This document shows positions 2,775 through 37,240 of a stretch of DNA of 38,226 nucleotides, in pieces. The stretch is taken from contig CACXJE010000012.1 in assembly GCA_902767915.1 (NCBI GenBank), forward strand, positions 1 to 38,226, read 5' to 3'. A model generated the notes under the pieces. It made no database searches. It was not told where the DNA came from and worked only from the letters and a program-made list of their open reading frames with translations. A program made the translations under genes and the position numbers. Source of the stretch: Oscillospiraceae bacterium (GTDB taxonomy: Bacteria; Bacillota; Clostridia; Oscillospirales; Oscillospiraceae). How positions within the stretch are numbered: the stretch's first letter is position 1; each line of letters starts with the position of its first letter.

Positions 2775-2844
2775 GTAGGGGCCGATGCCCACATCGGCCC
2801 TCACGCTGATCCGGGGTAGGGCCGATGTGGGCATCGGCCCCTAC
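2775..2844. repeat. 70-bp palindromic element bounded by GTAGGG/CCCTAC
   Basis: The element begins GTAGGGGCCGATG and ends CATCGGCCCCTAC. Its two ends form an inverted repeat of about 27 bp, and each arm is itself nearly palindromic (GGCCGATG/CATCGGCC), so it can fold either as one long hairpin or as two small ones. The centre, CTCACGCTGATCCGG, is unpaired. Ends match those of the 77- and 94-bp elements elsewhere in the window. It sits between the convergent ends of mrdA and cca. Confidence 0.85.
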
Positions 2845-4256: not shown

Positions 4257-4329
4257 AATTAAGAATTGAGAGTTGAGAATTGAGAATTGAGAATGAAATG
4301 TGTTTTGCAAATTGCAATTTGCAAAACTC
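4257..4329. repeat. AATTGAG heptamer array joined to a TTTTGCAAAT palindrome
   Basis: Five consecutive 7-bp units (AATTAAG, AATTGAG, AGTTGAG, AATTGAG, AATTGAG; 4257-4291) lead into AATGAAATGTG and the palindrome TTTTGCAAATTGCAATTTGCAAAA with CTCCGA after it. The same combination occurs at 10491-10582, so this is an interspersed composite repeat. It lies between topB and cca. Confidence 0.85.
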
Positions 4330-4332
4330 CGA

Positions 4333-4374
4333 CCCTGTTCCCTGTTCCCTAGTCCCTGTTCCCTAGTCCCTATT
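4333..4374. repeat. CCCTGTT/CCCTAGT heptamer array
   Basis: Six consecutive 7-bp units: CCCTGTT, CCCTGTT, CCCTAGT, CCCTGTT, CCCTAGT, CCCTATT. The last unit overlaps the topB stop codon (CTA at 4370-4372 on this strand, TAG on the coding strand). Related arrays are at 23056-23097 and 37193-37220. Confidence 0.88.
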
Positions 4375-6535
4375 TTTTATTCTTCTCCATCCACTTCGCC
4401 AGGGCGTCGGCCATGGCGGAGTTTTTTTCTGCCTTCTGCTCCTGCTGGGCCATATAGCGGCGGACGTCGGATTTGCCGGCCTCGAAGTCCGAGAGCTTCT
4501 CCCGGTAGCCGCAGGCGCAGGCGAAGGTCTGCTTGTCTCCCTCGCCCCAGAGCTCCAGCTTCTTGTGGCAGTTGGGGCAGCGGGCGTTGGTGACTTGGGT
4601 GGTCCGCTTCCGGAAGCCGCATTCCCGGTCCGGGCAGACCAGCAGCTCCCCCCGCTTGTCCTTTACCAGAAGCAGCAGCTTGCCGCATTCCGGGCAGGGC
4701 TTCCGGGTCTGGTTGTCGTGGGTGTAGGTGGCGTCGCTGGCCTTCACGTCGGCCACCAGCTTCGTTGCGTACTTCCGCATCTGGGCCACAAAGTCCGCGT
4801 CCCGCTCCTGGCCCTTGGCGATCCGGGCCAGCCGGTCCTCCCATTGTGCGGTCAGCGCCGCGCTGCGCAGCTCCGCCGGGGCCAGCTGCACCAGCTGGAT
4901 CCCCTTGGAGGTGGGCACCAGGGTCTTGCCCTGGCGCTCGATATAGAAGGCAGAGAACAGCTTTTCAATGATGTCCGCCCGGGTGGCGGGGGTGCCCAGG
5001 CCGGAGGTCTCCTGCAGGATCTTCTGCAGGTTCTTGTCCGCCACCTGGGAAACCGGATGCTCCATGGCGGTCAGCAGGGTGGCCTCGGTGTACCGGGCCG
5101 GAGGCGCGGTCTTGCCGGTGGTGAGCCGGAGCTTCCGGACCTTGAGCCGCTGGCCCTTTTGCAGGTCCGGCAGCCGCTGCTGCTCCTCCTCGGTCTCGTC
5201 GTCCTCGTCCTCCAGGGCGGCAAAGTTCTTGTCGTAGGCTGCCTTCCAGCCCTGATCCAGCACCCGCCTGCCCGCGGCGGTGAAGGTCTGATCTCCGATC
5301 TTTACGGTCAGACGGATCTCCTCATATTCAAAGGGGGGCATCAGCACCGCCAGGAAGCGGCGGACCACCAGATCATAGATATTTTTCTCCGGGCCGGTGA
5401 GTTCATACAGGGACGCCGCCTCCTCGGTGGGGATGATGGCGTGGTGGTCGGTGACCTTGGCGTTGTTCACCAGGTACTTGGTCTGGAAGGGCTTTTTCCG
5501 CTGGACAGCCCAGGCCAGCTCCTTGTATTCCGCCTGGGCCACCGCCCGGAGCCGGTCCGGCAGGGTGGGCACCACGTCGTCGGAGATGTAGCGGCTGTCG
5601 GTCCGGGGATAGGTCAGGGCCTTGTGCCGCTCATAGAGGCTCTGCATCAGGTTCAGGGTCTCCTTGGCGGAGTAGGCGTATTTCTTGTTGGCGTCCCGCT
5701 GGAGCTCCGTCAGGTCGTAGGCCGCCGGGGGCGGGGTCATCTTCCGCATTTTGGAGATCTGGGTGATGACGGCCTCCTTGCCCTCGCAGGCCTTCAACAG
5801 CCGTTCCAGCTTTTCCCTGTCGAAGGTGCGGCCACTGCCCTTCTCGTCCTTCCAGGTGGCCCGGAAGCCCTCCAGCTCGGCGCACAGGCCGTAGAACTCC
5901 CTGGGCACGAAGCGGCGGATCTCATTCTCCCGCTCCACCACCAGAGCCAGGGTCGGGGTCTGGACCCGGCCGGCGGAGAGCTGGGCGTTGAATTTGCAGG
6001 TCAGGGCCCGGGTCACGTTGAGCCCCACCAGCCAGTCCGCCTCGGACCGGGCCTGGGCGGACCGGTAGAGATTGTCGTAATCCTTGGCGGGCTTCAGATT
6101 GGCGAAGCCCTCCCGGATGGCCTTGTCGGTCTGGGAGGAGATCCACAGCCGCTTGGCAGGCTTGTTCCAGCCGGCCTTCTGCATGATCCAGCGGGCCACC
6201 AGCTCTCCCTCCCGGCCGGCGTCGGTGGCGATGACCAGGTCGGAGACGTCGCCCCGCTTCATCAGATTCGCCACCACCTTGTACTGGCGGCTGCTCTCGG
6301 GGATCACCACTAACTTCATCTTCTCCGGCAGCATGGGCAGGTCGTCCATGCTCCATTTTTCCAGCTTTTTATCATAGACGTCCGGGTCCGCCAGCGTCAC
6401 CAGATGGCCCAGGGCCCAGGTGACCACGTACCGGTCCCCCTCCATGCAGCCGTCGCCGCTCCGCTTGCAGCCCAGCACCCGGGCCAGCTCCTTGCCCACG
6501 GAGGGCTTTTCCGCTAAAACCAAAGTTTTCGCCAT
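4370..6535 (-). CDS. topB: DNA topoisomerase III (type IA)
   Basis: Type IA topoisomerase that nicks one strand through a 5'-phosphotyrosine and decatenates or relaxes DNA. The 721-residue protein opens with the TOPRIM domain (LVLAEKPSVGKELA near residue 5 and TDAGREGE at 104-111). The active site is Tyr309 in TYPRTDSRY. Near the C-terminus are two zinc-ribbon-like modules, CPECGK...CPDRECG and CPNCHK...CACG, then a charged tail. The start is the ATG at 6535, before MAKTLVLAEKP, with GAGGTGA just upstream; a 23-residue in-frame extension has no ribosome binding site and overlaps the promoter. TopB differs from TopA in its compact size and this N-terminal motif. The gene is divergent from hrcA, and its stop codon lies in a heptamer repeat. 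Confidence 0.94.
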   Translation of the reverse strand: MAKTLVLAEKPSVGKELARVLGCKRSGDGCMEGDRYVVTWALGHLVTLADPDVYDKKLEKWSMDDLPMLPEKMKLVVIPESSRQYKVVANLMKRGDVSDLVIATDAGREGELVARWIMQKAGWNKPAKRLWISSQTDKAIREGFANLKPAKDYDNLYRSAQARSEADWLVGLNVTRALTCKFNAQLSAGRVQTPTLALVVERENEIRRFVPREFYGLCAELEGFRATWKDEKGSGRTFDREKLERLLKACEGKEAVITQISKMRKMTPPPAAYDLTELQRDANKKYAYSAKETLNLMQSLYERHKALTYPRTDSRYISDDVVPTLPDRLRAVAQAEYKELAWAVQRKKPFQTKYLVNNAKVTDHHAIIPTEEAASLYELTGPEKNIYDLVVRRFLAVLMPPFEYEEIRLTVKIGDQTFTAAGRRVLDQGWKAAYDKNFAALEDEDDETEEEQQRLPDLQKGQRLKVRKLRLTTGKTAPPARYTEATLLTAMEHPVSQVADKNLQKILQETSGLGTPATRADIIEKLFSAFYIERQGKTLVPTSKGIQLVQLAPAELRSAALTAQWEDRLARIAKGQERDADFVAQMRKYATKLVADVKASDATYTHDNQTRKPCPECGKLLLLVKDKRGELLVCPDRECGFRKRTTQVTNARCPNCHKKLELWGEGDKQTFACACGYREKLSDFEAGKSDVRRYMAQQEQKAEKNSAMADALAKWMEKNKK

Positions 6536-10479: not shown

Positions 10480-10490
10480 GCTGAATGTAC

Positions 10491-10582
10491 AATTGACAAT
10501 TGACAATTGAGAATGAATGTGTTTTGCAAATAGCAATTTGCAAAACTCCGAAATTTTCAATTCTCAATTTTCAATTGTCAAT
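10491..10582. repeat. Composite inverted repeat: heptamers flanking a TTTTGCAAAT palindrome
   Basis: Left arm: three heptamers AATTGAC, AATTGAC, AATTGAG (10491-10511). Core: AATGAATGTG then GTTTTGCAAATAGCAATTTGC and AAAACTCCG. Right arm: four heptamers in inverted sense, TTTCAAT, TCTCAAT, TTTCAAT, TGTCAAT (10555-10582). The whole is a palindrome that could fold into a stem-loop of about 90 nt. The left part and core match 4257-4329. Confidence 0.85.
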
Positions 10583-10609
10583 TTTATTTCACCTGTGAGG
10601 TGATCATAC

Positions 10610-11764
10610 ATGGCAAACGAAAACAAGAGAGATTACTACGAGGTCCTGGGCGTGGAGAAAAACGCCGCGGCGGACCAATTGAAAAAGGCCTACCGGAAGC
10701 TGGCGGCCAAATATCACCCGGACGTGAACCACGAGGCGGACGCCGAGGAGCGGTTCAAGGAGATCAACGAGGCCTATGAGGTCCTCTCCGACCCCGACAA
10801 GCGGGCCCGCTACGATCAGTACGGCTTTGCGGGGGTGGATCCCAACTTCTCTGCAGGCGGCAACCCCTTCGAGGGCTTCGGCGGCGGGTTTGGGGGCTTC
10901 TCCGGCTTCGGCGACCTGGGAGACATCTTCGGCGACTTCTTCGGCGGCGGCCGGTCCTCCCGCAGCGGCGGCACCAGAGCCGCCCGGGGCGAGAACGTGG
11001 TGGTCCAGATCGAGGTCAGCTTTGAGGAGGCCGCCTTCGGCTGCAAGAAGGAGGTCAACGTCTCCCGGATCGAGACCTGCGACCAGTGCCACGGCTCCGG
11101 CTGCGCGGAGGGCACACAGCCCGAAACCTGCCCCCAGTGTAAGGGCTCCGGCCAGGTCCGCACCACCCAGAGCTTCATGGGCATGACCATGCAGTCCACC
11201 GCCGTCTGCCCCACCTGCGGCGGCAGAGGCAAGCTGATCAAGAACCCCTGCACCCGCTGCAAGGGCAAGGGCCGGATCAAGCGTTCCCACAGGCTGATCG
11301 TGGAGGTCCCCGCCGGCATCGACGACGGCCAGGCCTTCCGGGTCGCCGGCCAGGGCAGCGCCGGCGCCAACAACGGGCCCAGCGGCGATCTGATGGTCAA
11401 CGTCCGGATCCGTCCCCATGACATCTTCACCCGGGACGGCTCCAACGTCTACTGCGAGATGCCCATCTCCTTCGCCCAGGCCGCCTGCGGCGCGGAGATC
11501 GAGGTGCCCACCCTGGACGGCAAGGTCCGGTACAACGTGCCCGAGGGCACCCAGACCGGCACCACCTTCCGGCTCAAGGGCAAGGGCATTCCCTACGTGG
11601 GCTATAAGAACCGGGGCGACCAGTACGTCACCGTGGTGATTGAGACTCCCACCAAGCTGACCCAGCAGCAGAAGGAGCTGCTCCGCCAGTTCGACCAGGC
11701 CACCGAAAAGGCCCAGCCCAAGAAGAAGTCCTTCTTCGAAAAGCTGAAGCGGAATTTCGGATAG
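10610..11764 (+). CDS. dnaJ: Chaperone protein DnaJ (Hsp40)
   Basis: Delivers substrates to DnaK and stimulates its ATPase. It has 384 residues with the full type I architecture. The J domain (about residues 8-72) carries the HPD tripeptide in KYHPDVN. A Gly/Phe-rich stretch (about 80-118) follows. Four CxxCxGxG zinc-binding repeats lie at about 160-225 ([32 protein letters not shown]), then the C-terminal substrate-binding domains. ATG at 10610 has GAGGTGAT a few bases upstream. It is last in the hrcA operon, 171 bp after dnaK, with the composite repeat in between. No TTA, CTA or TCA codon occurs. Confidence 0.97.
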
Positions 11765-11872: not shown

Positions 11873-12020
11873 TTCATAACCCCTCCACCACTGCGCTTCG
11901 CGCGGCGGTCCTCCTGATTAACTGGCGATAAAACCCAAAACAGTCCCCCGGAGGGTTTTGTTCTTAAGGCCCTTACGGGCCGATAGGGGAGGTTTTCGCG
12001 GTGGCCTGTGACCAGGGGTT
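11873..12020. other. Multi-hairpin intergenic island of unknown role
   Basis: Within the 612-bp gap after dnaJ this stretch carries no plausible gene but several short palindromes: GCGCTTCGCGC, AAAACCC...GGGTTTT around TCCCCCGGA, and GGCCCTTACGGGCC. CCCCTCC near the left end pairs with GGGGAGG near the right end, which could close the island as one multi-branched structure. It may be a repeat element or a structured RNA. Confidence 0.4.
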
Positions 12021-12114
12021 GTAGGGAGGCATCCCCAGATGCCTCCGGCCGCTTCGCAGAAGCGGCGTCATTGCCTGAGGCAATGACCGGAGCGATGAGG
12101 GCATCGCTCCCTAC
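12021..12114. repeat. 94-bp palindromic element, copy A
   Basis: Bounded by GTAGGG and CCCTAC, it contains four consecutive small hairpins: GAGGCATC...GATGCCTC, GCCGCTTC...GAAGCGGC, CATTGCC...GGCAATG and GAGCGATG...CATCGCTC. The copy at 16514-16607 is in inverted orientation and differs at only two of 94 positions. Confidence 0.92.
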
Positions 12115-12191
12115 GACGCGCCGGTGACTGGCGCATCAGGCGGGCAGGGACGTTCCGATTTCGTCATTGCGAGGCCCGAAGGGCCGTGGAC

Positions 12192-12233
12192 AATTAATTC
12201 TCAATTCTCAATTCTCAACTTTCAATTCTCAAG
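12192..12233. repeat. Heptamer array (TCTCAAT type)
   Basis: Six consecutive 7-bp units: AATTAAT, TCTCAAT, TCTCAAT, TCTCAAC, TTTCAAT, TCTCAAG. This is the complement of the AATTGAG array at 4257 with a shifted register. It abuts the terminator-like stem at 12232. Confidence 0.8.
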
Positions 12234-12276
12234 CAGGGGCCGCGCACAGGCGCAGCCCCTGCTGTTGCCTATTTTT
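12232..12276 (+). terminator. Terminator-like hairpin before the 12377 gene
   Basis: Nine-bp stem AGCAGGGGC (12232-12240) with GCCCCTGCT (12255-12263), then T6 at 12271-12277 after an 8-nt gap. It could end read-through from dnaJ. The distance from stem to T-run is longer than usual. Confidence 0.5.
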
Positions 12277-12376
12277 TCCCTTCCCTCCTTCCCTCGACAA
12301 GTTCCTCTCTCCCGGGAGGCTATACTGTTGGTACACAAAGAACCACGTATACGCCTATGGAGAGGAGCTTATACAA

Positions 12377-13114
12377 ATGAACCGCTATTCTCTGCGGCTG
12401 GCCTGGGTGGGGACGTTGATCGGCGTCCTGACCCTGAGCGCCGTCGCCATTGCCAATCTCAGCAGGGCAGAAGCCCGGGCTGCCCGAAGGAACCCCGGGC
12501 CGGCGGCCCCAAGCCAAACAGCAGCTCTTGAAACCGCCGCGGATCTGTGGGAGGAGCCCGCGGCCCAGGCCTTTGCCCCCGGGGATGGGGACTGCAGCTG
12601 CCTGCTCTGCTTTTCCGGGACGGACGCCGCCGGAGCTTATGAGCTTTTGGATCTGCAGGGCCGTTCCTTTGGCACGATCCGGCCGGACAGCAACCTGGAA
12701 AGCCTCCTGGGCCCATTGCCGCCGGGCCGGTATCAGCTCACCGGGGACGGAACCAGCCTGGGCTCCTTCCGGATCACCGAGGAGGAGGGCATTGAGGAGA
12801 CCGGCGGCCGGCTCTGGACCGACGGGGAGCGGCTCTGGCTGGAGTCCTTCTGCCCGGGAGCTGCCGAGATCCGGCTGCAGCTTCCCCACCCGGGGTATTT
12901 CAGCTATCAGCTGGTGGACGACCTGGGCAGGCAGTGGACCCGGGACGTCTTTCTCTCCGACAGGACGCCCCCGGATCCGGACGGACTGTATCGCCGGGTC
13001 CTCCGCTATGACGGCCTGCCCGAGGGCCGCTATACCCTGGTGGAGGCGGGTCAGCCGCTGACCCAGTTTCGGGTGCTGGCCGGCGGCACGGCACGGATTT
13101 CCGTCGGCGATTAA
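12377..13114 (+). CDS. Membrane-anchored protein of unknown function with an internal duplication
   Basis: I do not recognise this 245-residue protein. It has a hydrophobic N-terminal segment (about residues 8-28, LAWVGTLIGVLTLSAVAIAN) that could be a membrane anchor or signal peptide, and a low-complexity linker to about residue 70. Two similar beta-rich modules follow. The first ends PLPPGRYQLTGDGTSLGSF (113-131) and the second ends GLPEGRYTLVEAGQPLTQF (213-231); the matching segments are exactly 100 residues apart. Cys73, Cys75 and Cys78 cluster just after the linker. ATG at 12377 has AGGAG ten bases upstream, and a longer in-frame version would run back through repeats, so it was rejected. 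A TATACT at 12321-12326 is a possible -10 box without a clear -35. The gene is single and convergent with acpP. Extracytoplasmic location is inference. Confidence 0.7.
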   Translation: MNRYSLRLAWVGTLIGVLTLSAVAIANLSRAEARAARRNPGPAAPSQTAALETAADLWEEPAAQAFAPGDGDCSCLLCFSGTDAAGAYELLDLQGRSFGTIRPDSNLESLLGPLPPGRYQLTGDGTSLGSFRITEEEGIEETGGRLWTDGERLWLESFCPGAAEIRLQLPHPGYFSYQLVDDLGRQWTRDVFLSDRTPPDPDGLYRRVLRYDGLPEGRYTLVEAGQPLTQFRVLAGGTARISVGD

Positions 13115-13126
13115 GCGGTACAAGGA

Positions 13127-13159
13127 AAAGCGGCCTTCCCCGGTTGGGAAGGCCGCTTT
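13127..13159 (+). terminator. Bidirectional terminator between the 12377 gene and acpP
   Basis: Perfect 14-bp stem AAAGCGGCCTTCCC (13127-13140) with its complement (13146-13159), loop CGGTT. It is centred between two convergent genes, 12 bp after one stop and 19 bp from the other. The T-runs are short. Confidence 0.75.
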
Positions 13160-13178
13160 CGCAGCGCGAAAAAACCGT

Positions 13179-13427
13179 TTATTCAAAGGCGTCCTGATCC
13201 ATACCGCCCTGGCGCTCCAGGTAGGAGACCACGTCGCCGACCGTGTTGAAGCCCACCAGCTCCTCGTCGGGGATCACAATGCCCTTCTCCTCCTCAATGG
13301 TCATCAGCAGCTGGAGAATGTCCAGGGAATCCGCGCCCAGATCGTCCTTGATCCGGGACTCCATGGCAATGTCCTTTCCTTCCAGATGCAGCTGCTGGGC
13401 AAGAATATCACATACTTCATCAAACAT
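13179..13427 (-). CDS. acpP: Acyl carrier protein
   Basis: Carries growing fatty acyl chains on 4'-phosphopantetheine during type II fatty acid synthesis. The 82-residue acidic protein has the attachment site Ser34 in GADSLDILQLLM and the usual four-helix pattern (MFDEVCDILAQQL... to VGDVVSYLER). I chose ATG at 13427 because GGAGAAGG lies just upstream on the minus strand; the in-frame ATG at 13478 has no ribosome binding site, and anything beyond about 13553 precedes the predicted transcription start. plsX lies about 0.9 kb upstream on the same strand, with a GtrA-family gene in between. ACPs for other pathways look similar, but the plsX, degV and fakA neighbourhood supports the fatty acid role. 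Confidence 0.9.
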   Translation of the reverse strand: MFDEVCDILAQQLHLEGKDIAMESRIKDDLGADSLDILQLLMTIEEEKGIVIPDEELVGFNTVGDVVSYLERQGGMDQDAFE

Positions 13428-13559
13428 GGTATCCTTCTCCGTTTCGTAAACAGTATCTTCCTCGGCGGGATCCGCCATCTCAGCGGGCCGGGTGTATTCT
13501 TCGATCACCGGTTCAAACTCCTTTCCAATTTGCCGATCAGAGGCATTTTTTCCGTTCCT

Positions 13560-13588
13560 ATGATACATGACCGACCCGGGTTCGTCAA
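13560..13588 (-). promoter_or_regulatory. Sigma-70-type promoter for acpP
   Basis: Minus strand: TTGACG (13583-13588), 17-bp spacer, TATCAT (13560-13565). The predicted leader is about 125 nt. It makes longer N-terminal versions of the ACP frame unlikely. Confidence 0.65.
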
Positions 13589-13637
13589 GTGCGACTTTTT
13601 TCCGCCCGGGGCAGCGTCGGTCCGCGTCGAAAAAACC

Positions 13638-13667
13638 TTGACACAGAATTCCGCCGTATGCTATAAT
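13638..13667 (+). promoter_or_regulatory. Consensus sigma-70 promoter for the GtrA-family gene
   Basis: TTGACA (13638-13643), 18-bp spacer, TATAAT (13662-13667): both hexamers match the consensus. It is divergent from the acpP promoter about 50 bp away. Confidence 0.85.
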
Positions 13668-13743
13668 GCGGGTTGTATCAAAATGTATCGGCCCGGACCC
13701 GGCCCGGCAGACAGCCGCCCGGAGCGGGCAGAACGGAGCTCCC

Positions 13744-14220
13744 ATGAAAAAGATTATAAATCGGGAAACCATCCTGTATCTCGTGTTCGGCGTCCTCACC
13801 ACCCTGGTCAATTACGCGGTGTTCTGGGTGGGCATCCGGCTGTTCACAGACAAATATACCCTGCTGATCAATGCGGCGGCCTTTGTGGTGGCGGCGGCCT
13901 TCGCCTATGTGACAAACAAGCTGTTTGTCTTTGAGAGCAAGAGCTGGCGCTTTTCGGTGCTGAAAAAAGAGATCCCGGCCTTTTTTGCCGCCCGGATCTT
14001 CTCCTTCGGCCTGGAGGAACTGGGCCTCTGGCTCAGCAAGGACGTGCTCCGGGTGGGCCGGTACGCCCTGGTGCTGCCGGTGGGCTCCCGGAGCTTCTCG
14101 GTGGGCGGTATTATGATCGCCAAGATCATCCTGTCCGTGGTGGTGGTGCTGCTGAATTACGTGTTCAGCAAGCTGGTGATCTTCAAAAAAGGCGGAGAGG
14201 CCGAAAAACAGGAAAAATAA
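13744..14220 (+). CDS. GtrA-family membrane protein
   Basis: Small integral membrane protein of the GtrA family, whose members are thought to help move lipid-linked sugars across the membrane or assist cell-surface polysaccharide glycosylation. It has 158 residues and four probable membrane helices (about 10-30, 37-60, 77-95 and 122-147). The family's paired signatures are present: AYVTNKLFVFES after helix 2 and NYVFSKLVIFKK after helix 4. ATG at 13744 has GGAG at 13735-13738; the in-frame upstream ATG begins at the promoter -10 region. The strong own promoter and a terminator at 14292 make it a single-gene unit placed between plsX and acpP, both on the other strand. No sugar-transfer partner gene is in the window, so its substrate cannot be stated. 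Confidence 0.85.
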   Translation: MKKIINRETILYLVFGVLTTLVNYAVFWVGIRLFTDKYTLLINAAAFVVAAAFAYVTNKLFVFESKSWRFSVLKKEIPAFFAARIFSFGLEELGLWLSKDVLRVGRYALVLPVGSRSFSVGGIMIAKIILSVVVVLLNYVFSKLVIFKKGGEAEKQEK

Positions 14221-14223
14221 TCT

Positions 14224-14249
14224 GCAGCGCCGGCGATCAGCCGGCCCGA
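14224..14249. repeat. Partial copy of the AGCGCCGGC palindromic repeat
   Basis: GCAGCGCCGGCGATCAGCCG and CGCCGA-like sequence after it match the left end of the element at 11783-11867 with two or three differences. It starts four bases after the GtrA-family stop codon. Confidence 0.6.
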
Positions 14250-14291
14250 AACGAATCGCCAGACCCCGCTTTGTGCTTCTTTGACAAGCTG

Positions 14292-14329
14292 ACGCCGCTG
14301 CCGGCATTGCCGGCAGCGGCGTTCCTGTT
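14292..14329 (+). terminator. Intrinsic terminator of the GtrA-family gene
   Basis: Perfect 14-bp GC-rich stem (14292-14305 with 14309-14322), loop ATT, followed by TCCTGTTTTT. It lies just before the end of the convergent plsX gene. Confidence 0.85.
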
Positions 14330-14337
14330 TTTCCGAA

Positions 14338-15360
14338 TCAGACCGGCTGGCTCTGCAGGGCCGCCAGGGACTCGGCGATCTTTTCGTTCATGCCGGAGGC
14401 GGCCATCTGGTGGGCCTGCTCCACGCATTTGAAGAAGGCGGAGGGGGTGCTGGAGCCGTGGCCCTTCACCACTAACTTTTCCGCGCCCAAAAGCACGCTG
14501 CCGCCGTAGTTCTGGTAGTTGAAGAACCGGGCCTCCTCCCGGAACATCTTCTTCATAAACAGGGCCCCCAGCTTGTAGATGCCCTTGGAATAGATGTCCC
14601 GCTTGAGCTTTTTCATCAGCTCCAGGGCGGTGCCCTCGGTGGTTTTGATCAGCACGTTGCCGCCGAAGCCGTCGGTGACCACCAGATCGTAATTGCCGCT
14701 CAGCAGATCCCGGCTCTCCATGTTGCCCACGAAGTGGATGTTCGGGGTGTTTTCCAGGATAGGGAAGGCGGCCTTCCGGAGATTGTCGCCCTTTTCGGTC
14801 TCCACGCCGATGTTCAGCAGGGCCACCCGGGGCCTTTCGATGCCGAAGGCGCATTCCAGGTAGCGGCTGCCCATGACGGCGAACTGCTGCAGCTGCTCCG
14901 GCAGAATGTCCACGTTGGCGCCGCTGTCGCAGACGCCCACGATCCCGCCGGTCATGGTGGGCAGGATCGGGCAGAAGGCGGGCCGCCGGACCCCGGGGAT
15001 CCGGCCGATCCGCAGGGTGGCCCCGGCCACCAGGGCGCCCGTGGAGCCGGTGGAGAGCAGGGCATCAGCGGCGGGATCCTCCCGCAGCATCCGGATGCCC
15101 CTGACCATGGAGCTGTCCTTTTTCAGACGGATCGCGTCGGTGGGCCTGTCCTCGCCGGTGATGACACCGGGGGCGTGGACGATTTCGATCCGGCTCCGAT
15201 CCACGGGCTGTTCGGTCTTTTTCAGCTCGGCCTCGATGCCAGCCTCGTCGCCGATCAGGACCACGGACAGTTCGGGATATTTTTCCAGGCCCATCAGGGC
15301 GCCGGAGACGTTGGTGCCCGGGCTGTTGTCGCCGCCCAGGCAGTCGATGAGGAATTTCAT
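14338..15360 (-). CDS. plsX: Phosphate acyltransferase PlsX
   Basis: Converts acyl-ACP and phosphate to acyl-phosphate, the acyl donor used by PlsY to start phospholipid synthesis. The 340-residue protein begins MKFLIDCLGGDNSPG, the PlsX equivalent of the usual AMGGDxAP opening, and keeps the STGALVAGATL and GAEKLVVKGHGSS segments of the family. ATG at 15360 has GGAG in the last codons of the upstream gene. The stop of that gene ends one base before this ATG, so translation is coupled. It is the last gene of a probable fakA-degV-GNAT-plsX transcript. FakAB makes the same acyl-phosphate from free fatty acids, so both supply routes are co-located. acpP, the usual neighbour, is displaced by the GtrA-family gene. 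Confidence 0.94.
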   Translation of the reverse strand: MKFLIDCLGGDNSPGTNVSGALMGLEKYPELSVVLIGDEAGIEAELKKTEQPVDRSRIEIVHAPGVITGEDRPTDAIRLKKDSSMVRGIRMLREDPAADALLSTGSTGALVAGATLRIGRIPGVRRPAFCPILPTMTGGIVGVCDSGANVDILPEQLQQFAVMGSRYLECAFGIERPRVALLNIGVETEKGDNLRKAAFPILENTPNIHFVGNMESRDLLSGNYDLVVTDGFGGNVLIKTTEGTALELMKKLKRDIYSKGIYKLGALFMKKMFREEARFFNYQNYGGSVLLGAEKLVVKGHGSSTPSAFFKCVEQAHQMAASGMNEKIAESLAALQSQPV

Positions 15361-15361
15361 G

Positions 15362-16486
15362 TTAATTCTCCAATTTCTTCACAAAGGAGCGGCGCTTCTT
15401 ATGCTGCACGGCCTTGAACCGCTTCCACTGGTTGATGATGGCCCGGTTGTCCTCTAAGTTCAGGTTGGTTTCCGCGTATTCCACGCCGTCGGATCTCAGC
15501 AGCTTCAGAATATGGGCGGAGGCGATGGTGGCCACGCCCCGGTTGGCCCACTCCGGATCCACGGCCACCAGGCCCAGATCCAGGATCTTCGGCTTCTTCA
15601 CGTCCCGCAGCACCCGGACCAGGGCGGCAGGGGTCAGCTTGCCGTTGGATTTCTGCAAAGCCCGGGACAGGGAGGGGAAGCAGAGCCCCAGCATCACCAG
15701 CTTGTCCTGCTCGTCCAGCACCACCCCCACGTATTTCAGGTCGATGATCAGCATGAAGTTCTGGATCAGCATATCCTGCATGCCCTTGGTGAAGGGGACC
15801 GTGCCGTAGATATCCTTGTAGCCCCGGTCGATCAGATCGAAGAAGGCGTCGCCGTAGCGGCGGATGAAGTCCTTCTTGTTTTTGGCGGGGCCGAAATGGA
15901 GGTGATACCGGTCCATGATGAATTTGGACATTTTTTCCAGGGTGCCGTCGTCCTGATCCGGGAGATAGATCTTCCGCTCCTCCCAGTCCACCTCCTTGCC
16001 GTAGCCGCAGTGCTCGATGAGCCGCTGGTAGTAGTCGGCGTTGTACTGCTCCTCAAAGGTGGAGAGCTGGTCAAAGCCCTCGATCAGAAGGCCCTCCCGT
16101 TCCAGGTCGGAGAAGCCCAGAGGGCCGCAGACCGTGTCCATACCCTTGGCCCGGGCCCAGTTTTCCAGAGCGTGGAACAGGGCGTCGGCCACCTCCTGAT
16201 CGTCAATGGCGTCGAACCGGGTGAAGCGGATCCGCTTTTCGCCGGTTTTTTCGTTGTGGGCCTTCTGCAGGATGCCCTGGATCCGGCCGACGATCTTCCC
16301 GTCCCGGTAGGCGTTCCAGCAGGCCGCCTCGCAGGTGTCGTAGTAGACGTAGTCGGACCGGAACATTTTCTTTTCGTCCCCGTACAGAGGGGGCACAAAG
16401 CAGTCGTTGCCCTTGTAGAGCTTCAGCGGGAAGTCCAGAAAGTCCTTTTGCTGCCGTTTTGTCTTGACCTCGATGATTTCGACCAT
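15362..16486 (-). CDS. GNAT-fold N-acetyltransferase-like protein
   Basis: Protein of 374 residues with a C-terminal acyltransferase-like segment: LDLGLVAVDPEWANRGVATI resembles the GNAT motif A acyl-CoA loop, and ETNLNLEDNRAIINQWKRF resembles the family's final strand-helix. The N-terminal part (KDFLDFPLKLYKGNDCFVPP) matches, as I recall, a widespread family of uncharacterised proteins in anaerobes. The substrate is unknown. ATG at 16486 has AGAGGTC about eight bases upstream; a 15-residue extension starts in the adjoining repeat and was rejected. The stop is one base before plsX, so the two are coupled. That coupling suggests a lipid or acyl-related role, which is inference. Confidence 0.7.
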   Translation of the reverse strand: MVEIIEVKTKRQQKDFLDFPLKLYKGNDCFVPPLYGDEKKMFRSDYVYYDTCEAACWNAYRDGKIVGRIQGILQKAHNEKTGEKRIRFTRFDAIDDQEVADALFHALENWARAKGMDTVCGPLGFSDLEREGLLIEGFDQLSTFEEQYNADYYQRLIEHCGYGKEVDWEERKIYLPDQDDGTLEKMSKFIMDRYHLHFGPAKNKKDFIRRYGDAFFDLIDRGYKDIYGTVPFTKGMQDMLIQNFMLIIDLKYVGVVLDEQDKLVMLGLCFPSLSRALQKSNGKLTPAALVRVLRDVKKPKILDLGLVAVDPEWANRGVATIASAHILKLLRSDGVEYAETNLNLEDNRAIINQWKRFKAVQHKKRRSFVKKLEN

Positions 16487-16513
16487 GAAAATGACCTCTT
16501 TTCGTAAAGCTTT

Positions 16514-16607
16514 GTAGGGAGCGATGCCCACATCGCTCCGGTCATTGCCGCAGGCAATGACGCCGCTTCTGCGAAGCGGCCGGAGGCATCTGGGGATGCC
16601 TCCCTAC
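16514..16607. repeat. 94-bp palindromic element, copy B (inverted)
   Basis: Reverse complement of the element at 12021-12114, identical at 92 of 94 positions. The differences fall in the loop or centre of two of its hairpins, leaving the stems intact. It lies between degV and the GNAT-like gene, six bases from the degV stop, within a probable operon. Confidence 0.92.
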
Positions 16608-16613
16608 GGGCGG

Positions 16614-17483
16614 TTACCGATGCACCGCGTGGAAGCAGACGCCTACGCCGTTGGGCCCGCAGTGGGCGCCGGCGGTGGGGTTGACGCAGACGATTTCGGG
16701 CTCCAGCTTGTCGCCGAACTTGGCCTTCAGCGCCTGGGCCACCTGGTCGGCGATTTCGGGGGCGTCGGTGTGGCCGATGCAGATCCGGTGGGCGCAGACC
16801 TCGTCGCCCAGCTCCTCCACGTAGCTGATCAGACGGTCCACGGCCTTCTGCCGGCCCTTTTCCTTGCCGATGGAGACCATCTTGCCCTCCTGGCTCATGT
16901 GGATGATGGGCCGGATCCCCAGCAGGGTGCCCATGGTGCCGGCCAGACCGGAGACCCGGCCGCTGTGCTTGAAGAACTTCAGATCGTCGGCGAAAAAGTA
17001 CATGGCGTACTTGTCCACCTCGGTCTTCGCCCAGTCCAGAATCTCCTCCGGGGTCTTGCCGGAGTTCAGCAGGTCGCCCACGGTCCGGACGATGGTGTAG
17101 CTGATGGTGGTGATGCCCTTGGTGTCGACCTCATAGAACTTCCGCTCCGGATATTTCTCCCGGAGCTCCGCCAGGGCCTGATCCATGGAGTCAAAGGTGG
17201 CGGTCATGGCCCGGGAGAAGTGGACGTAGAGGATGTCGTCTCCCCGGGCGAAGCAGGGCTCAAAATACTGGATGTACTGGTCCTTGCTCAGGGCGCTGGT
17301 GTTGGGCAGAACGCCCTCCCGGAGCTGATCGTAGAAGCCGTGGAAGTCGAAGCTGCCGCCGTCGGCGTAGGGGTAGACGGTGCGGCCCTCGATGGAGTAG
17401 GGCATGCTGATCAGCCTGCAGTTGTACTGCTTGGCAACCTCCGGGGTCAGGTCGGTATCGGTGTCGGTGAAGAATTGCAGCAT
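16614..17483 (-). CDS. DegV-family fatty acid-binding protein (FakB type)
   Basis: DegV proteins bind one fatty acid and present its carboxyl to the kinase FakA, making acyl-phosphate. The 289-residue protein has the family landmarks: FTDTDTDLTPEVAKQY at the N-terminus, PNTSALSKDQYIQYF near residue 60, HFSRAMTATFDSMDQAL near 90, the FKHSGRVSGLAGTMGTLLG stretch near 165 and a C-terminal TAGAHCGPNGVGVCFH. ATG at 17483 has AAAGGA about ten bases upstream. It lies 38 bp after fakA on the same strand, an arrangement that supports a FakB role. The usual TDS-type opening is TDT here. Chain-length preference cannot be read from sequence. There is no TTA, CTA or TCA codon. Confidence 0.88.
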   Translation of the reverse strand: MLQFFTDTDTDLTPEVAKQYNCRLISMPYSIEGRTVYPYADGGSFDFHGFYDQLREGVLPNTSALSKDQYIQYFEPCFARGDDILYVHFSRAMTATFDSMDQALAELREKYPERKFYEVDTKGITTISYTIVRTVGDLLNSGKTPEEILDWAKTEVDKYAMYFFADDLKFFKHSGRVSGLAGTMGTLLGIRPIIHMSQEGKMVSIGKEKGRQKAVDRLISYVEELGDEVCAHRICIGHTDAPEIADQVAQALKAKFGDKLEPEIVCVNPTAGAHCGPNGVGVCFHAVHR

Positions 17484-23023: not shown

Positions 23024-23054
23024 TTCGGGGACAGCCGCTGCCCCTGTCCCCGAA
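23024..23054 (+). promoter_or_regulatory. Leader hairpin of the S8 protease mRNA
   Basis: Eleven-bp stem TTCGGGGACAG (23024-23034) with CTGTCCCCGAA (23044-23054), just after a run of T at 23019-23025 and near the predicted 5' end. It could stabilise the transcript; no riboswitch class is recognised. Confidence 0.55.
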
Positions 23055-23055
23055 T

Positions 23056-23097
23056 CCCCGATCCCTAATCCCTGTTCCCTGTTCCCCGTTCCCCTAC
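23056..23097. repeat. CCCTGTT-type heptamer array in the protease leader
   Basis: Six 7-bp units: CCCCGAT, CCCTAAT, CCCTGTT, CCCTGTT, CCCCGTT, CCCCTAC. Related to the arrays at 4333-4374 and 37193-37220. It is transcribed in the 5' untranslated region between the leader hairpin and the ribosome binding site. Confidence 0.82.
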
Positions 23098-23163
23098 TTA
23101 GTATATTGTGCGTCCGTCTTGCCGCGGCGCGTAATATAAATATTTCCAAAAGGAGAAATGACT

Positions 23164-26100
23164 ATGAAGAACGCACCTTTGTACCGTCGGCTTCTGTCGG
23201 TGGCTCTGGTGATTGCCATGCTGGCTACGTTCCTGGTCCCCACGGCCAGTGCGGAACCCGCCAAGGCAACAGAGTCTCAGGTTGAGGAACTCACCCTCAC
23301 CCCGATCGATCCCGGTACGCTGGAGTCCCAGAAGCTTGGCGCTGTCAAGACTGGCGACACCGTAGAAATGGAAGACCACGCGCTCTCCGACGTCGTTCGT
23401 GTTTCCATCGTGCTGGACAAGGCTTCCACTCTGGATGCCGGCTACAGCATGGAAGGCTTCACGAACAATGCCGAGGCCAAGGCCTACCGTGAAGGGCTTC
23501 GCGCTGACCAGGCTGCCATGACCGCCAAGATCGAAAAGGCGATCGGCAGCAAGCTGGACGTCAAGTGGAACCTGACACTGGCGGCCAACAACATCTCCGC
23601 GAACGTTCTCTACGGCCAGATCGACACCATCAAGGCAGTCCCTGGCGTCAAGGACGTTTTCCTGGAAAATCGTTACGAGCCCCAGGTTGCTGAGAAGGGC
23701 GACGAGCCCAACAACGGCTCTGCATCCTACATGATCGGCTCCAACATCACCTGGGCCGCCGGCTATACCGGCGCCGGCAGCAAGGTTGCTGTCATCGATA
23801 CCGGTATCGACTCCGAGCACATTTCTTTCTCCGGTGAGGCTCTTGAGTATGCGCTGGCTCAGAACGCCGAAGAGAAGGGCATGTCCTATGACGAGTATGT
23901 TGCTTCTCTGAACCTGCTGACCCCCGAAAAGATCGACGCGGTCAAGGGTGAGCTGAACGCCAACATCGGTTCCGGCGCGGATGCTTACCGCAGCACCAAG
24001 ATTGCCTACGGCTACAACTACGTGGACAAGCGCGTTGACTACATCGAGCATATGCAGGACTCCCAGGGTGAGCACGGCTCCCACGTGGAAGGCATCTCTG
24101 CTGCCAACCGCTTCGTGAAGGTTGACGGCGAGTTCAAGCCCGCGCTGGAAGCTGTCGGCACCCAGGGTGTTGCCCCCGACGCCCAGATCGTCACCATGAA
24201 GGTCTTCGGCATCGGCGGCGGCGCTTATGACTCCGACTACATGGTTGCCATCGAAGACGCCATCGTCCTCGGCTGCGATTCCGCGAACCTGTCTCTGGGC
24301 TCCGGCGCTGCCGGCTTCGGCTTCTCCGACGGCTACGAGGCAGTGCTGAACAAGCTGGTTGCCAACGGCATGGTTTGCTCCATCTCCATGGGCAACTCCT
24401 ACGGCTGGTACGACACTCCCTACGACACCGCCATGTATCCCTACCTGTACGCCGATGACGTCAACTACTCCACCGGCGGCAGCCCCGGCTCCTTCACCAA
24501 CTCCCTGGCTGTTGCCTCTGTGGACAACCTGGGCAGCACCGGCTATCCCCTGATGTTCGGTGACCGCCATGTGTTCTACTCCCAGACCAGCGGCTACGGC
24601 AATGAGCCCATCAACACCATCGCCGGCCCCGAGTACGAATACGTTCTGCTGGACGGCCCCGGCGTTGACGACAACGAGCACGTGGGTCAGGAAGGCGACG
24701 CTTTCATGGCTCTGGGCGAGGATGTTGTGAAGGGCAAGGTGGCCATGTGCTACCGCGGCACCTCCTCCTTCTTCGCCAAGGCCAACGCGGCTGTGGCCCA
24801 GGGCGCTGTTGCTGTGATCATCATCAACAACACCGACGGCGTCATCAACATGAACCTGACCGGTTACAACTACACCGCTCCTGCAGTCTCCATCCTGAAG
24901 GCTGACGGCGACGCCATCAAGGCGGCCTCCGAAAAGGTTACCACCGAGGGTGGCCTGGAGTACTACACCGGCACCATGAGCGTTTCCGCCGACATGGAAG
25001 TCCAGGTTCCCGAAGCCACCGACACTGTCACCGTCTCCGCCTTCTCCTCCTGGGGCATTCCCGGCACCATGGTTCTGAAGCCCGAGATCCTGACCCCCGG
25101 CGGCTCCATCTACTCCGTCTGGGGCGCCAACATCGCCTCCGGCAGTGCGCAGAGCGGCCATGACCAGTACGAGGTCATGTCCGGTACCTCCATGGCGGCT
25201 CCTCAGGTCAACGGTATGGCCGGCGTGCTCGGTCAGTACATCCGTGAGAACGGCCTGTGCGAGAAGACCGGCCTGAGCCAGCGTCAGCTGATCAACTCCC
25301 TGCTGATGTCCACCGCTCACCCCGTCTACGACGCTGACGGCAACTACTGGCCCGTCATCCGTGTCGGCGCCGGCCTCGGCAATGTTGCCGACGCTGTGGC
25401 TGCCAAGTCCTACATCCTGATGGACGAAGAGTCCACCCTGTTCCCCGACTCCGCCAAGGACGGCAAGGTCAAGGCTGAGCTGGGCGACGATCCCGAATAC
25501 ACCGGTGAATACACCTACTCCTTCACCATCTATCCTCTGGAAGGCGAGAAGGAATTCACGCTCCGCACCGATATCTTCACCCAGTGGCTGGCCGGCAACG
25601 GCGGCTACGGCATGCTGCAGGATCAGGCCACTGTTCTGCTGGGCTCCGAAGCCACCTATGAAATCAACGGCGAGACCTATGAAGATACCTATATGGTAGA
25701 AGCTGACGTCAATATGGACGGCGAAACCGACGCTGCCGACGCCCAGGCCATCCTGGACCACATCACCGGCGCTGAGGAAGAGGGCGCCCAGTTCGACGCA
25801 GAAGCTGCCGATGTAGACGGCGATGGCAAGATCACCTCCTACGACGCCAAGCTTCTGCTCGACTCCTGCGCAACTCCCACCGTCACCATCACCGAGCCTA
25901 CCAAGGTCACCGTGAACTTCAAGATCGATGAAGGCGACAAGGCGTTCCTGCTGAACTACTTCACCAATGGCTTCTACGTACAGGGCTACACCTACGTTGA
26001 GCCTGTTGCCGATGAAGAAGGCAACATGGACGTTGTGCACTCCATCCCCATCCTGGGCTACTGCGGCTCCTGGACCGACCCCGCCATGCTGGATCGCAGC

Positions 26101-29100
26101 TCCGTTATCGACGCTGCCTACGGCACCGGCAAGCGGCCCTACCTGGCCAACTCCAACACCAACTACCTGACCCTGAAGGATCCCGAGGGCAATTCCGCTA
26201 TCTACATGGGCAACCCCTACATGGTCGAGGACAAGTTCCCCGCTGACCGGCTGGCCATGAACAGCGAAGCCACCGTGGCGGCCTTCAACTATCTGAACAT
26301 CCGTAACGTGACGACCCTGGGCTTTGCTGTGACCAACGCCGACGGCCGGGTCCTGTACTCCCAGGTGACTCCCACCAGCAAGTACGCTGCTTACTACTAT
26401 GTCAACGGCGGCGCATGGCAGAACTACAGCCCCGCCAACTACAGCGTCAACAAGAAGCTGGCTGCTGCGGGCGTCAAGGAAGGCGACAAGGTTACCGTCG
26501 GCTTCTATGCGCTGCCTGAGTACTACGCCATCCAGGCTGCCAAGCTGAAGGGCGAGGTTGCCACCTCCGGCTCTCTGGACAACGACGGCTTCAAGTCTGT
26601 CCTGGAGGCTGGCATTGTTGGCGACGGCGCCGGCATTAAGTACGACGTGCTGATTGACGATACCGCTCCTGTGGTCAAGGGCGCCTTCCGCGACCTGATC
26701 ACCGGCGACATCACCGTCATGGCCTCCGACGACAACTACATCGCTTACGTCGGCGTGCTGAACAAGTCCGGCACCAAGGAATTCCTGGGCGTTGTGCCCG
26801 AGCAGACAGAGCCCGGCCAGCAGGTCGAGGTTCCTCTGGATCTGGAAGGCCAGAAGTTGCCCAACGAGGTCACCCTGCTGGTTGGCGACTACGCCGGCAA
26901 CGAGGCTGCCTTCAAGGTCAATCTGGGCGGCTCCGAGGAAGACGTTGAGCCCATCATGCTGGGCTTTGTTCCCGCCGGCTCCACCGCGGCCCCCGGCAGC
27001 GGCAACCGTGTCTGGGAGATCGACCGTGAGAACGTCTCCTACAACTACTCCGCCGGCACCTACACCGGCCTGAGCGTCTACTCCAACGTTCCCGCCGCTG
27101 TCACCGCCGCTGAGCATGTGGACGGCTACATCTTCATGGCTGCCGATGACGGCTGGTTCTATGCCGGCGATCTGAACAGCCTGGACGAGGCCTCCCCTGT
27201 GGGCAAATTCTCCGACAAGACCGAGAAGGTCTATGACATGGCATTCAGCTACAAGGACAACACCATGTATGTCCTGGGCATGAACAACGTAATCTACACC
27301 ATGGACCTGCTCACCGGCAAGCTGACTCCTGCCATTAAGCTGACCCTGCCCGGCACCAGCGGTATCTACGCTGAGGCCAACGCCCTGGCCATCGATGACA
27401 ATGGCGAGTTCTACGTTGCCAACTACGGCAGCACCTCCAGCACTGTACTGTTCAAGTTCACCTACGAGGCTCCCGAACCCGTGGAAGAGGAGCCCGTGGA
27501 AGAGGACAACGCCATTGCGCGCTTCGACTTCGAGGCTGCCAACGCCCTGGAGGGCTGGACCATCCTGGATGTGAACGGCGACAACAGCACCTTCACCCTG
27601 AATACCACCGCCAACTACGCCCACGGCGGCTCCGTCTCCCTGGCCAACCGCTACAATTCCTCCATCAGCGTGGATGACTGGGCCATTACTCCCGCCATCG
27701 ACCTGAACGGCCTGGAGACTGCCAAGCTCTCCTTCTTTGCCGCCAACCGCGCCAACTCCTTCCCGGAGACCCTGGCCGTGGCCATCGGCACCACCCCCAA
27801 TCCCGACGAGATGACCGTGATCATCCCCGCCACCACGCTGGGCGCCTCGGTTGACAGCTACGCCAACCTCACCGCGGATCTGGCCGACTACATCGGCGAG
27901 GAGCCCGTCTACATCGGCTTCCACCATTTCGACAGTACGGATACCTTCTATCTGCACATCGACGACGTGGAGATCCAGGGCGAGTATCCCGCCTCCGACG
28001 AGCCCGAACCCGAGCCCGAACCCGAACCCGATCCCGAGCCTCTGGCTGTCGAAGCCGAGCGCGTGGGCAACATGGGCGTCTACAACTACAGCAACGGCGG
28101 CGCCCTTGCCTGGGACCATGACACCGATACCCTGTACATGGCCTCCAACTACAGCAAGACCCAGGACTACGACCACTATCTGTGGACCGTCAACACCGAG
28201 ACCGGCCGTGCCGCCAAGGCCAACAGCTCCAACGGCAGCTACTCCGCCCGTCTGTACGGCAATGTCTGCGGCCTGGTAATCGTGCCCGGCACCAACCATA
28301 TGTTTGAGCCCACCGAAGAGCCCACCGACCTGATTGTCATGCCTGAGGCGCTGAACCTCCTGAAGGGCCAGACCGTCACCGCCTCCGCAGTGGTTCTGCC
28401 TTGGACTCTGACTGAGAAGGAAGTCACCTGGGAGTCCGCCGATGAGACCGTCGCCACCGTCAAGGATGGCGTCGTCACCGGCGTTGAGGTGGGTGAGACC
28501 ACCATCACCGTCACCACCGTTGCCGAGCCCGCATTGACTGCTGAGATCCCCGTCACCGTGGAGAACATCCCCGAGGCAGAGATCCGCGGCATCATCTGGG
28601 ACGAGGACGGCAAGGGCCAGTCCTCCGTCTTCAACACCGTCGCTCCTTCCGAGTGGACTGCGGAAGCCCAGGTCGGTGCGTTCCGCTGGGGCGCCCTGGT
28701 AGACGACACTGTCTATGGCTCCACTGAAGACACCATGTTTGCCTATGATGCGGATACCTATGAGGTTACCCAGCTGGGCGGCATCGTCAGCATGTGGATC
28801 CCCTCCGACGCCATCGCGATTCCCGCTGATCTGGTTGAGGCCTGGGGCATCACCGGTCGCGTCGGCGGCCTGTGCAACAACGGTACCTACTTCGAGGTCC
28901 TGGACCCCGAGGTCGGCAGCCTGAACTACTGGAATCTGAGCTCCGCCTACAGCTCCGATCCCATGGCTGTCATCGCCACCATTGGCCGCGGTGACTACAC
29001 CGACGTCAACGGCGATGCGCATCCCAATTCCATGCTGAACTACATGATGACCGAGGGCGGCGTCCTGTGGCTGTTCGTCCTGGATCAGGAAGGCCACCTC

Positions 29101-32660: not shown

Positions 32661-32888
32661 TCGGGGTTTAATGCGCCGTAGGGGGCGGCGTCCCCGACGC
32701 CCCGAACGTACCGTTCTCTGATACCTGCGGGCCGTCGAGGACGCCGGCCCCTACGGGCGTTTCCGCCCGACAAATCGGGGTTTAATGCGCCGTAGGGGGC
32801 GGCGTCCCCGACGCCCCGAACGTGCCGCTTTCTGAAACCCGCGGGCCGTCGGGGACGCCGGCCCCTACGGGTGTAGCCCGATAAATCC
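32661..32888. repeat. Tandem duplication, 114-bp period, containing two 77-bp elements
   Basis: Two successive units each begin TCGGGGTTTAATGCGCC and carry a 77-bp GTAGGG...CCCTAC element (32678-32754 and 32792-32868). The elements differ mainly in the centre. After the second, GTGTAGCCCGATAAATC resembles the start of a further decayed junction. Both elements are in the same orientation, opposite to the copy at 7879-7955. This fills most of the 455-bp gap between the protease gene and typA. Confidence 0.9.
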
Positions 32889-37190: not shown

Positions 37191-37192
37191 GC

Positions 37193-37240
37193 AGGGACTA
37201 GGGAACAGGGAACAGGCCCGTTCGTAGGGGCGGTCGTTGT
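37193..37240. repeat. AGGGAAC heptamers and a half palindromic element
   Basis: AGGGACT, AGGGAAC, AGGGAAC (37193-37213) is the complement of the CCCTGTT array. CGTAGGGGCGGTCGTTGTAC (37224-37243) resembles one end of the GTAGGG element without its partner. Confidence 0.65.

Follow-up and report, generated by a model that had tools for sequence, protein, structure and literature searches.

A four-hairpin palindrome of an uncultured Oscillospiraceae genus is probably a GTAG-tagged REPIN moved by RAYT

The element and its two copies in the window

The DNA analysed here, referred to as the window, is a stretch of 38,226 nt from an Oscillospiraceae bacterium (assembly GCA_902767915.1, contig CACXJE010000012.1). 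It contains two inverted copies, A and B, of a 94-bp palindromic element that encodes no gene of its own. We interpret this element as a probable REPIN, i.e. a mobile pair of repetitive extragenic palindromes (REPs), that carries GTAG tags at its ends. Loci and genomes are designated by L and G numbers. The features of the two copies are as follows.

12021-12114, forward strand: copy A of the 94-bp REPIN; intergenic, 3' of dnaJ (the upstream gene, 10610-11764, encodes DnaJ)
12025-12046, 12048-12066, 12067-12087 and 12089-12110, forward strand: hairpins 1-4 of copy A, from the fold
12021-12046, forward strand: A-type end REP; GTAG tag and 9-bp stem GGAGGCATC/GATGCCTCC with loop CCCA
12047-12088, forward strand: structured spacer; of its two inner hairpins, the first differs in length and sequence between copies
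12089-12114, reverse strand: B-type end REP; read on this strand, GTAG tag and stem GGAGCGATG/CATCGCTCC
16514-16607, reverse strand: copy B of the 94-bp REPIN, in inverted orientation; its neighbours are a GNAT-domain gene (ORF 15362-16531, reverse strand) and a DegV gene (16614-17483, reverse strand)
16582-16603, 16562-16580, 16541-16561 and 16518-16539, reverse strand: hairpins 1-4 of copy B, from the fold
11986-12020, forward strand: separate repeat module GGGGAGGTTTT... (CCCCTATAG...ATAGGGGAGGTTTT), which precedes six copies in this genome at 34-36 nt

The start of the listed GNAT open reading frame (ORF) is a GTG within copy B; an ATG is present at 16486.

A preliminary description, made from the letters of this DNA, had reported that copy A and the reverse complement of copy B agree at 92 of 94 positions, and BLAST returned the same figure (98% identity, E 7.2e-41). 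A repeat search of the window found the inverted arms as 12021-12119 and 16509-16607 (99 nt, 96%). Both mismatches are loop positions, in hairpins 3 and 4, and the stems are intact as had been stated. Each copy forms four hairpins with stems of 9, 8, 9 and 9 bp. The folding energy was -39 kcal/mol with DNA parameters (z -8.3) and -62.7 kcal/mol with RNA parameters (z -7.6), and in neither case did a shuffled sequence equal it (0/200 each), so that the four hairpins in series are far beyond chance. The proposed enclosure by GTAGGG/CCCTAC holds in part. With RNA parameters, a cloverleaf is closed by GTAG/CTAC, whereas with DNA parameters the outer GTAG and CTAC are unpaired beside the 9-bp stems. 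The enclosed cloverleaf is thus a feature of the RNA-parameter fold only; as DNA, the element is predicted to form four serial hairpins with free GTAG tags.

Copies in the genome and in related genomes

The genome assembly comprises 2.2 Mb in 99 contigs and is 78% complete. Of 25 BLAST rows obtained in it, 15 were places of the element on nine contigs, 12 of them covering all 94 positions and three being partial (one partial copy ends at a contig start); the other ten rows were short self-palindrome matches. The flanks differed for the most part from place to place, and the element is therefore neither confined to the window nor to a single segmental duplication.

A covariance model was run on 59 genomes. 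As 72 candidates were scored per genome, the resulting counts are lower bounds: at least 15 genomes matched at E 0.001 or less, and matches that were strong, with a best E of 1.5e-9 or less, occurred within the genus only, in at least 9 of its 23 genomes, including the genome of the window. Weaker matches in G009, G019, G021, G028, G034 and G042 were excluded from the element counts. In 54 copies read from nine genomes, most copies in relatives and those copies of the own genome that lack the upstream module have unrelated flanks beginning at the same base. Orthologous copies were few (examples are those in TruB, CoaE and MutL in G004 and G016), and apart from these the copies read showed no position conserved across species next to any one gene family. 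The exact B-end pattern was detected in 9 of 400 genomes sampled from the family, belonging to 6 of 106 genera, in a sample that omits some of the element-bearing genomes.

Conservation of structure and of the two ends

To the structure alignment 45 copies (43 distinct) from nine genomes contributed; nine of the 54 copies were left out (L014, L011, L049, L284, the second L274 copy, L293, L294, L295 and L296). Standard pairs were present in 98.7% of 1634 pair cells. When partners were shifted by 1 to 3 columns as a control, just 33-58% of cells paired. In 9 of 38 pairs both sides had changed, amounting to 45 such cells compared with 11.4±3.5 in shuffles (0/500). Examples are a change from A-T to G-C in hairpin 1 (three copies) and from G-C to C-G in hairpin 4 (nine copies). 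The number of further pair types was less telling (16 observed, 14.0 in shuffles; 25/500). Inner hairpin 2 was the most variable part among copies. The preliminary description had offered selection for structure or recent copying as explanations, and each is partly true: the copies of the own genome are very alike, and the pairs changed on both sides come from the wider alignment.

In Pseudomonas, the REPIN unit consists of two inverted REPs. The alignment likewise shows two inverted REPs with GTAG on the outside, a head-to-head (HH) dimer, and its ends A and B are non-identical. These ends are reused: A-type and B-type ends enclose other spacers in all five G322 loci and in three of the four G135 sites read, forming units of 73-89 bp. 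The pair of ends therefore looks like the moving unit.

Insertion sites

For the analysis of insertion sites we used 43 of the 54 copies, excluding five orthologous or tandem duplicates, L011, L038, L039, L295 and L296 (non-standard ends), and L262 (short flank). The base preceding GTAG was C or T in 43/43 copies, and the base following CTAC was G or A in 42/43. A target-site duplication was found in none of the 43 copies, not even a direct repeat of one base.

Empty sites were found as well. The site of copy B was element-free in all three congeners aligned, with the same gene order. A search with 18 joined flank pairs as query gave element-free orthologues for L264 (four loci), L282 (four), L294 (two) and L283 (two of three, the third having a different insertion). 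In the region of copy A, the congener matches listed end at dnaJ.

RAYT-like genes and their hairpins

The preliminary description had suggested that the element is REP-like and moved by an enzyme encoded elsewhere, and we found support for this at genes resembling REP-associated tyrosine transposases (RAYTs). Four RAYT-like ORFs are present in the own genome, and GTAG hairpins flank every one of them; the match of these ORFs to Pfam Y1_Tnp was weak or lacking. The 12 relatives searched included the eight other element-bearing genomes; eight of the 12 had RAYT matches. At L057, a copy of the element lies about 1 kb from a RAYT gene, with another gene intervening. A RAYT gene of G005 is identical to one in the metagenome-assembled genome Tb.RUG.97.

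A scan for A and B ends covered 28 RAYT loci from the 12 relatives, 30 loci of a longer match list and 80 of 240 confirmed loci. Among the RAYT loci scanned, only L093 (G322, another genus) had an exact A-end variant nearby. On the flanks of its RAYT are 82-bp REPINs with unlike ends. They contain the 26-mer GTAGGGAGGCGTCCCCTGACGCCTCC, a G-C variant of the A-type REP that equals the A end of element copies L039, L262 and L263 exactly. The RAYT of L091 carries GTAGGGAGCGACG..., which is near to the B end of the element. Those in L065, L067, L120, L121 and L122 carry GTAGGGGCCGATG...CATCGGCCC or a loop variant of it, i.e. the end REP of another repeat of the window (2775-2844). In a tree of 76 RAYT cores (same-locus duplicates removed; the own RAYT L056 dropped as a misfit to the motif filter), a nine-member clade had support of 100/98, and each of its RAYT genes has a GTAG hairpin inside or close by. 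Within this clade, L091 and L093 were grouped at 99/92. The evidence from these loci is the chief support for mobility by RAYT, and it amounts to an association, not a proof.

Many RAYT genes contain such hairpins themselves. With gene bounds that are approximate, some places fetched twice and loci sampled with related queries, GTAG hairpins lay within the coding sequence of 66 of 126 RAYT ORFs, in both orientations in 43 (loci L056-L059 and L062-L199), and within 500 nt outside the gene in 51 of 126; the background rate in far flanks was 27 hairpins per 231,528 nt. Many internal hairpins are situated near -41 and +22 codons relative to the HUH motif. Two internal REP types gave opposite indications as to whether the internal pair is simply a genomic REP: the type of G261 has 22 copies, two of them inside the RAYT gene, and is absent from six of seven other genomes (two copies in G005), whereas that of G137 has just two copies, both internal, with one match in G337. 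Whether RAYTs recognize their own genes through such internal REP pairs is a testable question.

Copies within protein genes of sister species

Each strand of the element has one long open frame. We translated the ORFs spanning copies of the element, scanned most of them for domains, and then scanned the pieces on each side of the element separately. Among the copies of sister species, 12, distributed over nine gene families, had domain matches that span the element or flank it on both sides. RsmE, RimM, Maf, an RluB-type pseudouridine synthase and a heavy-metal P-type ATPase gave matches spanning one copy each. TruB has two in-frame copies, as does CoaE, where the profile resumes past the element at position 108 or 109. 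Two in-frame copies in RlmD are in near-identical loci of G013 and G016 and may represent one event or contamination. An Orn/Lys/Arg decarboxylase (L035) has one, with a downstream domain that barely passes (24.4 versus 24.2 bits). The downstream match of the TIGR03936 copy L293 was below cut-off, and four copies had a domain on one side only (MutL twice, TIGR03936 in L283 and the decarboxylase in L296); at L283 the DNA aligns with congeners on both sides of the element. The frame is identical in all 17 such copies, most of which read VGSD[AP].IAPVIA.... Eight spanning ORFs of the own genome were scanned (L002, L003, L007-L010, L012 and L014), and none had domains on both sides; the window copies thus resemble ordinary intergenic ones. 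Core genes carrying the element in frame, along with relatives that lack it at some of those sites, offer a direct route to how proteins tolerate mobile palindromes.

Spanning ORFs of L035, L037, L264, L270, L277, L281, L293 and L296 contain other repeat-like in-frame stretches (such as ATGNRQQATGD and MQNAKCKMQNE), as if several repeat families were tolerated in protein loops.

Possibly, although we are inclined to doubt it, the REPs of this lineage are shaped for translation. The element has one clean open frame per strand, its core-gene copies use one frame only, and many RAYT genes are tagged internally, at recurring points, by an inverted REP pair of a sequence that they may recognize.

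Proposed mechanism and alternatives

Taken together, these results make it probable that the 94-bp element is a GTAG-tagged REPIN, a gene-less mobile palindrome moved as single-stranded DNA by RAYT. The unit consists of two inverted REP hairpins with GTAG tags, a head-to-head heterodimer whose ends, A and B, are connected by a spacer with two hairpins. The mover would most likely be a RAYT, a Y1 HUH transposase of the IS200/IS605 type that acts on single-stranded DNA, presumably from the clade of L091 and L093. By analogy with known RAYT and IS200/IS605 enzymes, it would read each end as 5' GTAG plus hairpin, and the strand would enter between two pyrimidines and two purines with no duplication of the target.

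Several observations weigh against this interpretation. The RAYT-like ORFs match NCBIfam REP_Tyr_transpos at 56-65 bits, below the cut-off of 80, and no RAYT was matched in the element-bearing genomes G002, G010 and G013 (88, 70 and 56% complete). The preliminary description had looked to a transposase gene whose ends match those of the element; an exact A-end variant lies at the RAYT of L093 in another genus, and a RAYT flanked by the exact element was found neither in the own genome nor in the eight other element-bearing genomes. B ends without an A mate occur in the six G005 loci read, in the loci read of G110, G151, G188 and G413, and in most of G280. The insertion point is not fixed to the base, because the intergenic or loop regions of the congeners are too diverged. 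Duplications of 2 nt or more were expected in merely 0.4 of 43 shuffled pairings; given this low expectation, their absence counts against a duplicating enzyme and favours no single alternative. Moreover, the common lengths of the element, 94 and 91 nt, are not divisible by three. The in-frame copies thus require extra bases or later small changes, and probably survive through selection. Finally, six copies in the own genome have a common upstream module, as would be expected if a larger piece had been copied.

That such a larger composite repeat spread through duplication or gene conversion, instead of the 94-bp unit being transposed, seems unlikely to us. The module GGGGAGGTTTT, at 11986-12020 in the window, stands 34-36 nt in front of copy A and of the copies in L002, L004, L005, L007 and L009, adjoins a truncated element in L011, and some of these copies also have a downstream flank in common; some may therefore have been copied together with their flank. 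Against this as the general explanation, unrelated flanks start at the same base in the other own copies and in most copies of relatives, and among the loci examined the module precedes copies in the own genome only, being located elsewhere in the relatives L034 and L270.

The preliminary description had also likened the element to a miniature inverted-repeat transposable element (MITE), which would be moved through terminal inverted repeats by a DDE transposase. The element is indeed short and dispersed and has inverted ends, but the missing target duplication (0/43) speaks against a MITE, its ends are GTAG-tagged hairpins and not simple inverted repeats, and ends of the same kind occur at RAYT loci. 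We consider this origin highly improbable, although no search aimed at DDE transposases was made. The strong RNA fold and the compensatory changes could also be expected of a structured RNA, a cis-regulator or small RNA that is kept for its fold and was duplicated by chance; in addition, the L294 copy adjoins an inverted repeat, TTAGCACTC/GAGTGCTAA, which we take to be the CIRCE operator. Yet no Rfam family scored above threshold anywhere in the window, copies occur in many different flanks and also within coding sequence of sister species, and the aligned congener sites lack the element. We therefore give an RNA function as the cause of its spread very little credence.

Relation to known repeats

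The kind of element is already known. The main text of PMC3733652 (Di Nocera et al. 2013) describes GTAG REPs, HH heterodimers and their association with RAYT, spacers with two stem-loops for CGTC dimers, and intragenic REPs with tRNA pseudouridine synthase B (TruB) among the recurrent targets. Like this superfamily, the 94-bp element has a GTAG tag at one end of a REP with a 9-bp stem and a 4-nt loop, two different partners with GTAG outside (HH), a spacer with two stem-loops (there in CGTC dimers), RAYT genes nearby and some intragenic copies. Unlike the elements described there, it has two additional hairpins that almost all copies retain, separated by few or no unpaired bases. Firmicutes or Clostridia are not mentioned in that main text, and a four-hairpin GTAG unit was not found in it; the element is set apart from its 24 families by description, not by consensus sequences. 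Relative to the text of that paper, what is new is the multi-hairpin (four-hairpin) GTAG REPIN family and the host lineage.

Dispersed, REP-based miniature mobile DNA tied to RAYT is represented by the Pseudomonas REPINs, according to PMC3116915. The 94-bp element resembles these in being dispersed, REP-based and probably linked to RAYT, and differs in having a structured spacer and unlike ends A and B. Rickettsia palindromic elements (RPE), as summarized in the main text of PMC3733652, are palindromes within unrelated protein-coding genes. The 94-bp element is similarly found in frame in conserved protein genes, in sister species (12 copies) and not in the own genome; unlike RPE as outlined there, it has GTAG-tagged ends and RAYT-like genes in most of the genomes that bear it. 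In the open-licence literature searched, we recognized no paper on this element family in Oscillospiraceae. With these findings, an uncultured genus of Oscillospiraceae-like Bacillota joins the known hosts of the GTAG REP/RAYT system; it holds several coexisting RAYT and REP families in addition to an element with two differing ends.

Other repeats and features

The window contains further palindromic GTAGGG...CCCTAC repeats, which belong to sequence families other than that of the 94-bp element:

2775-2844, strand not assigned: REPIN whose end REP GTAGGGGCCGATGCCCACATCGGCCC also adjoins RAYT genes in L065, L067, L120 and L121
7879-7955, strand not assigned: REPIN-like repeat, from the repeat search
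32678-32754, strand not assigned: REPIN-like repeat, member 1 of a tandem pair, from the repeat search
32792-32868, strand not assigned: REPIN-like repeat, member 2 of the tandem pair, from the repeat search

At L024 (G000 C36, around 19135), a run of small hairpins spaced by ACTTCATAT represents another repeat type. AT-rich short periodic repeats of the AATTGAGA type are located in the window at 4257-4294, 10484-10597 and 12196-12227, and those of the CCCTGTTCCCTAGT type at 4333-4384, 23035-23100 and 37192-37216. A protein of 3134 aa with subtilase, cleaved adhesin, SLH and dockerin domains is encoded at 23158-32562.

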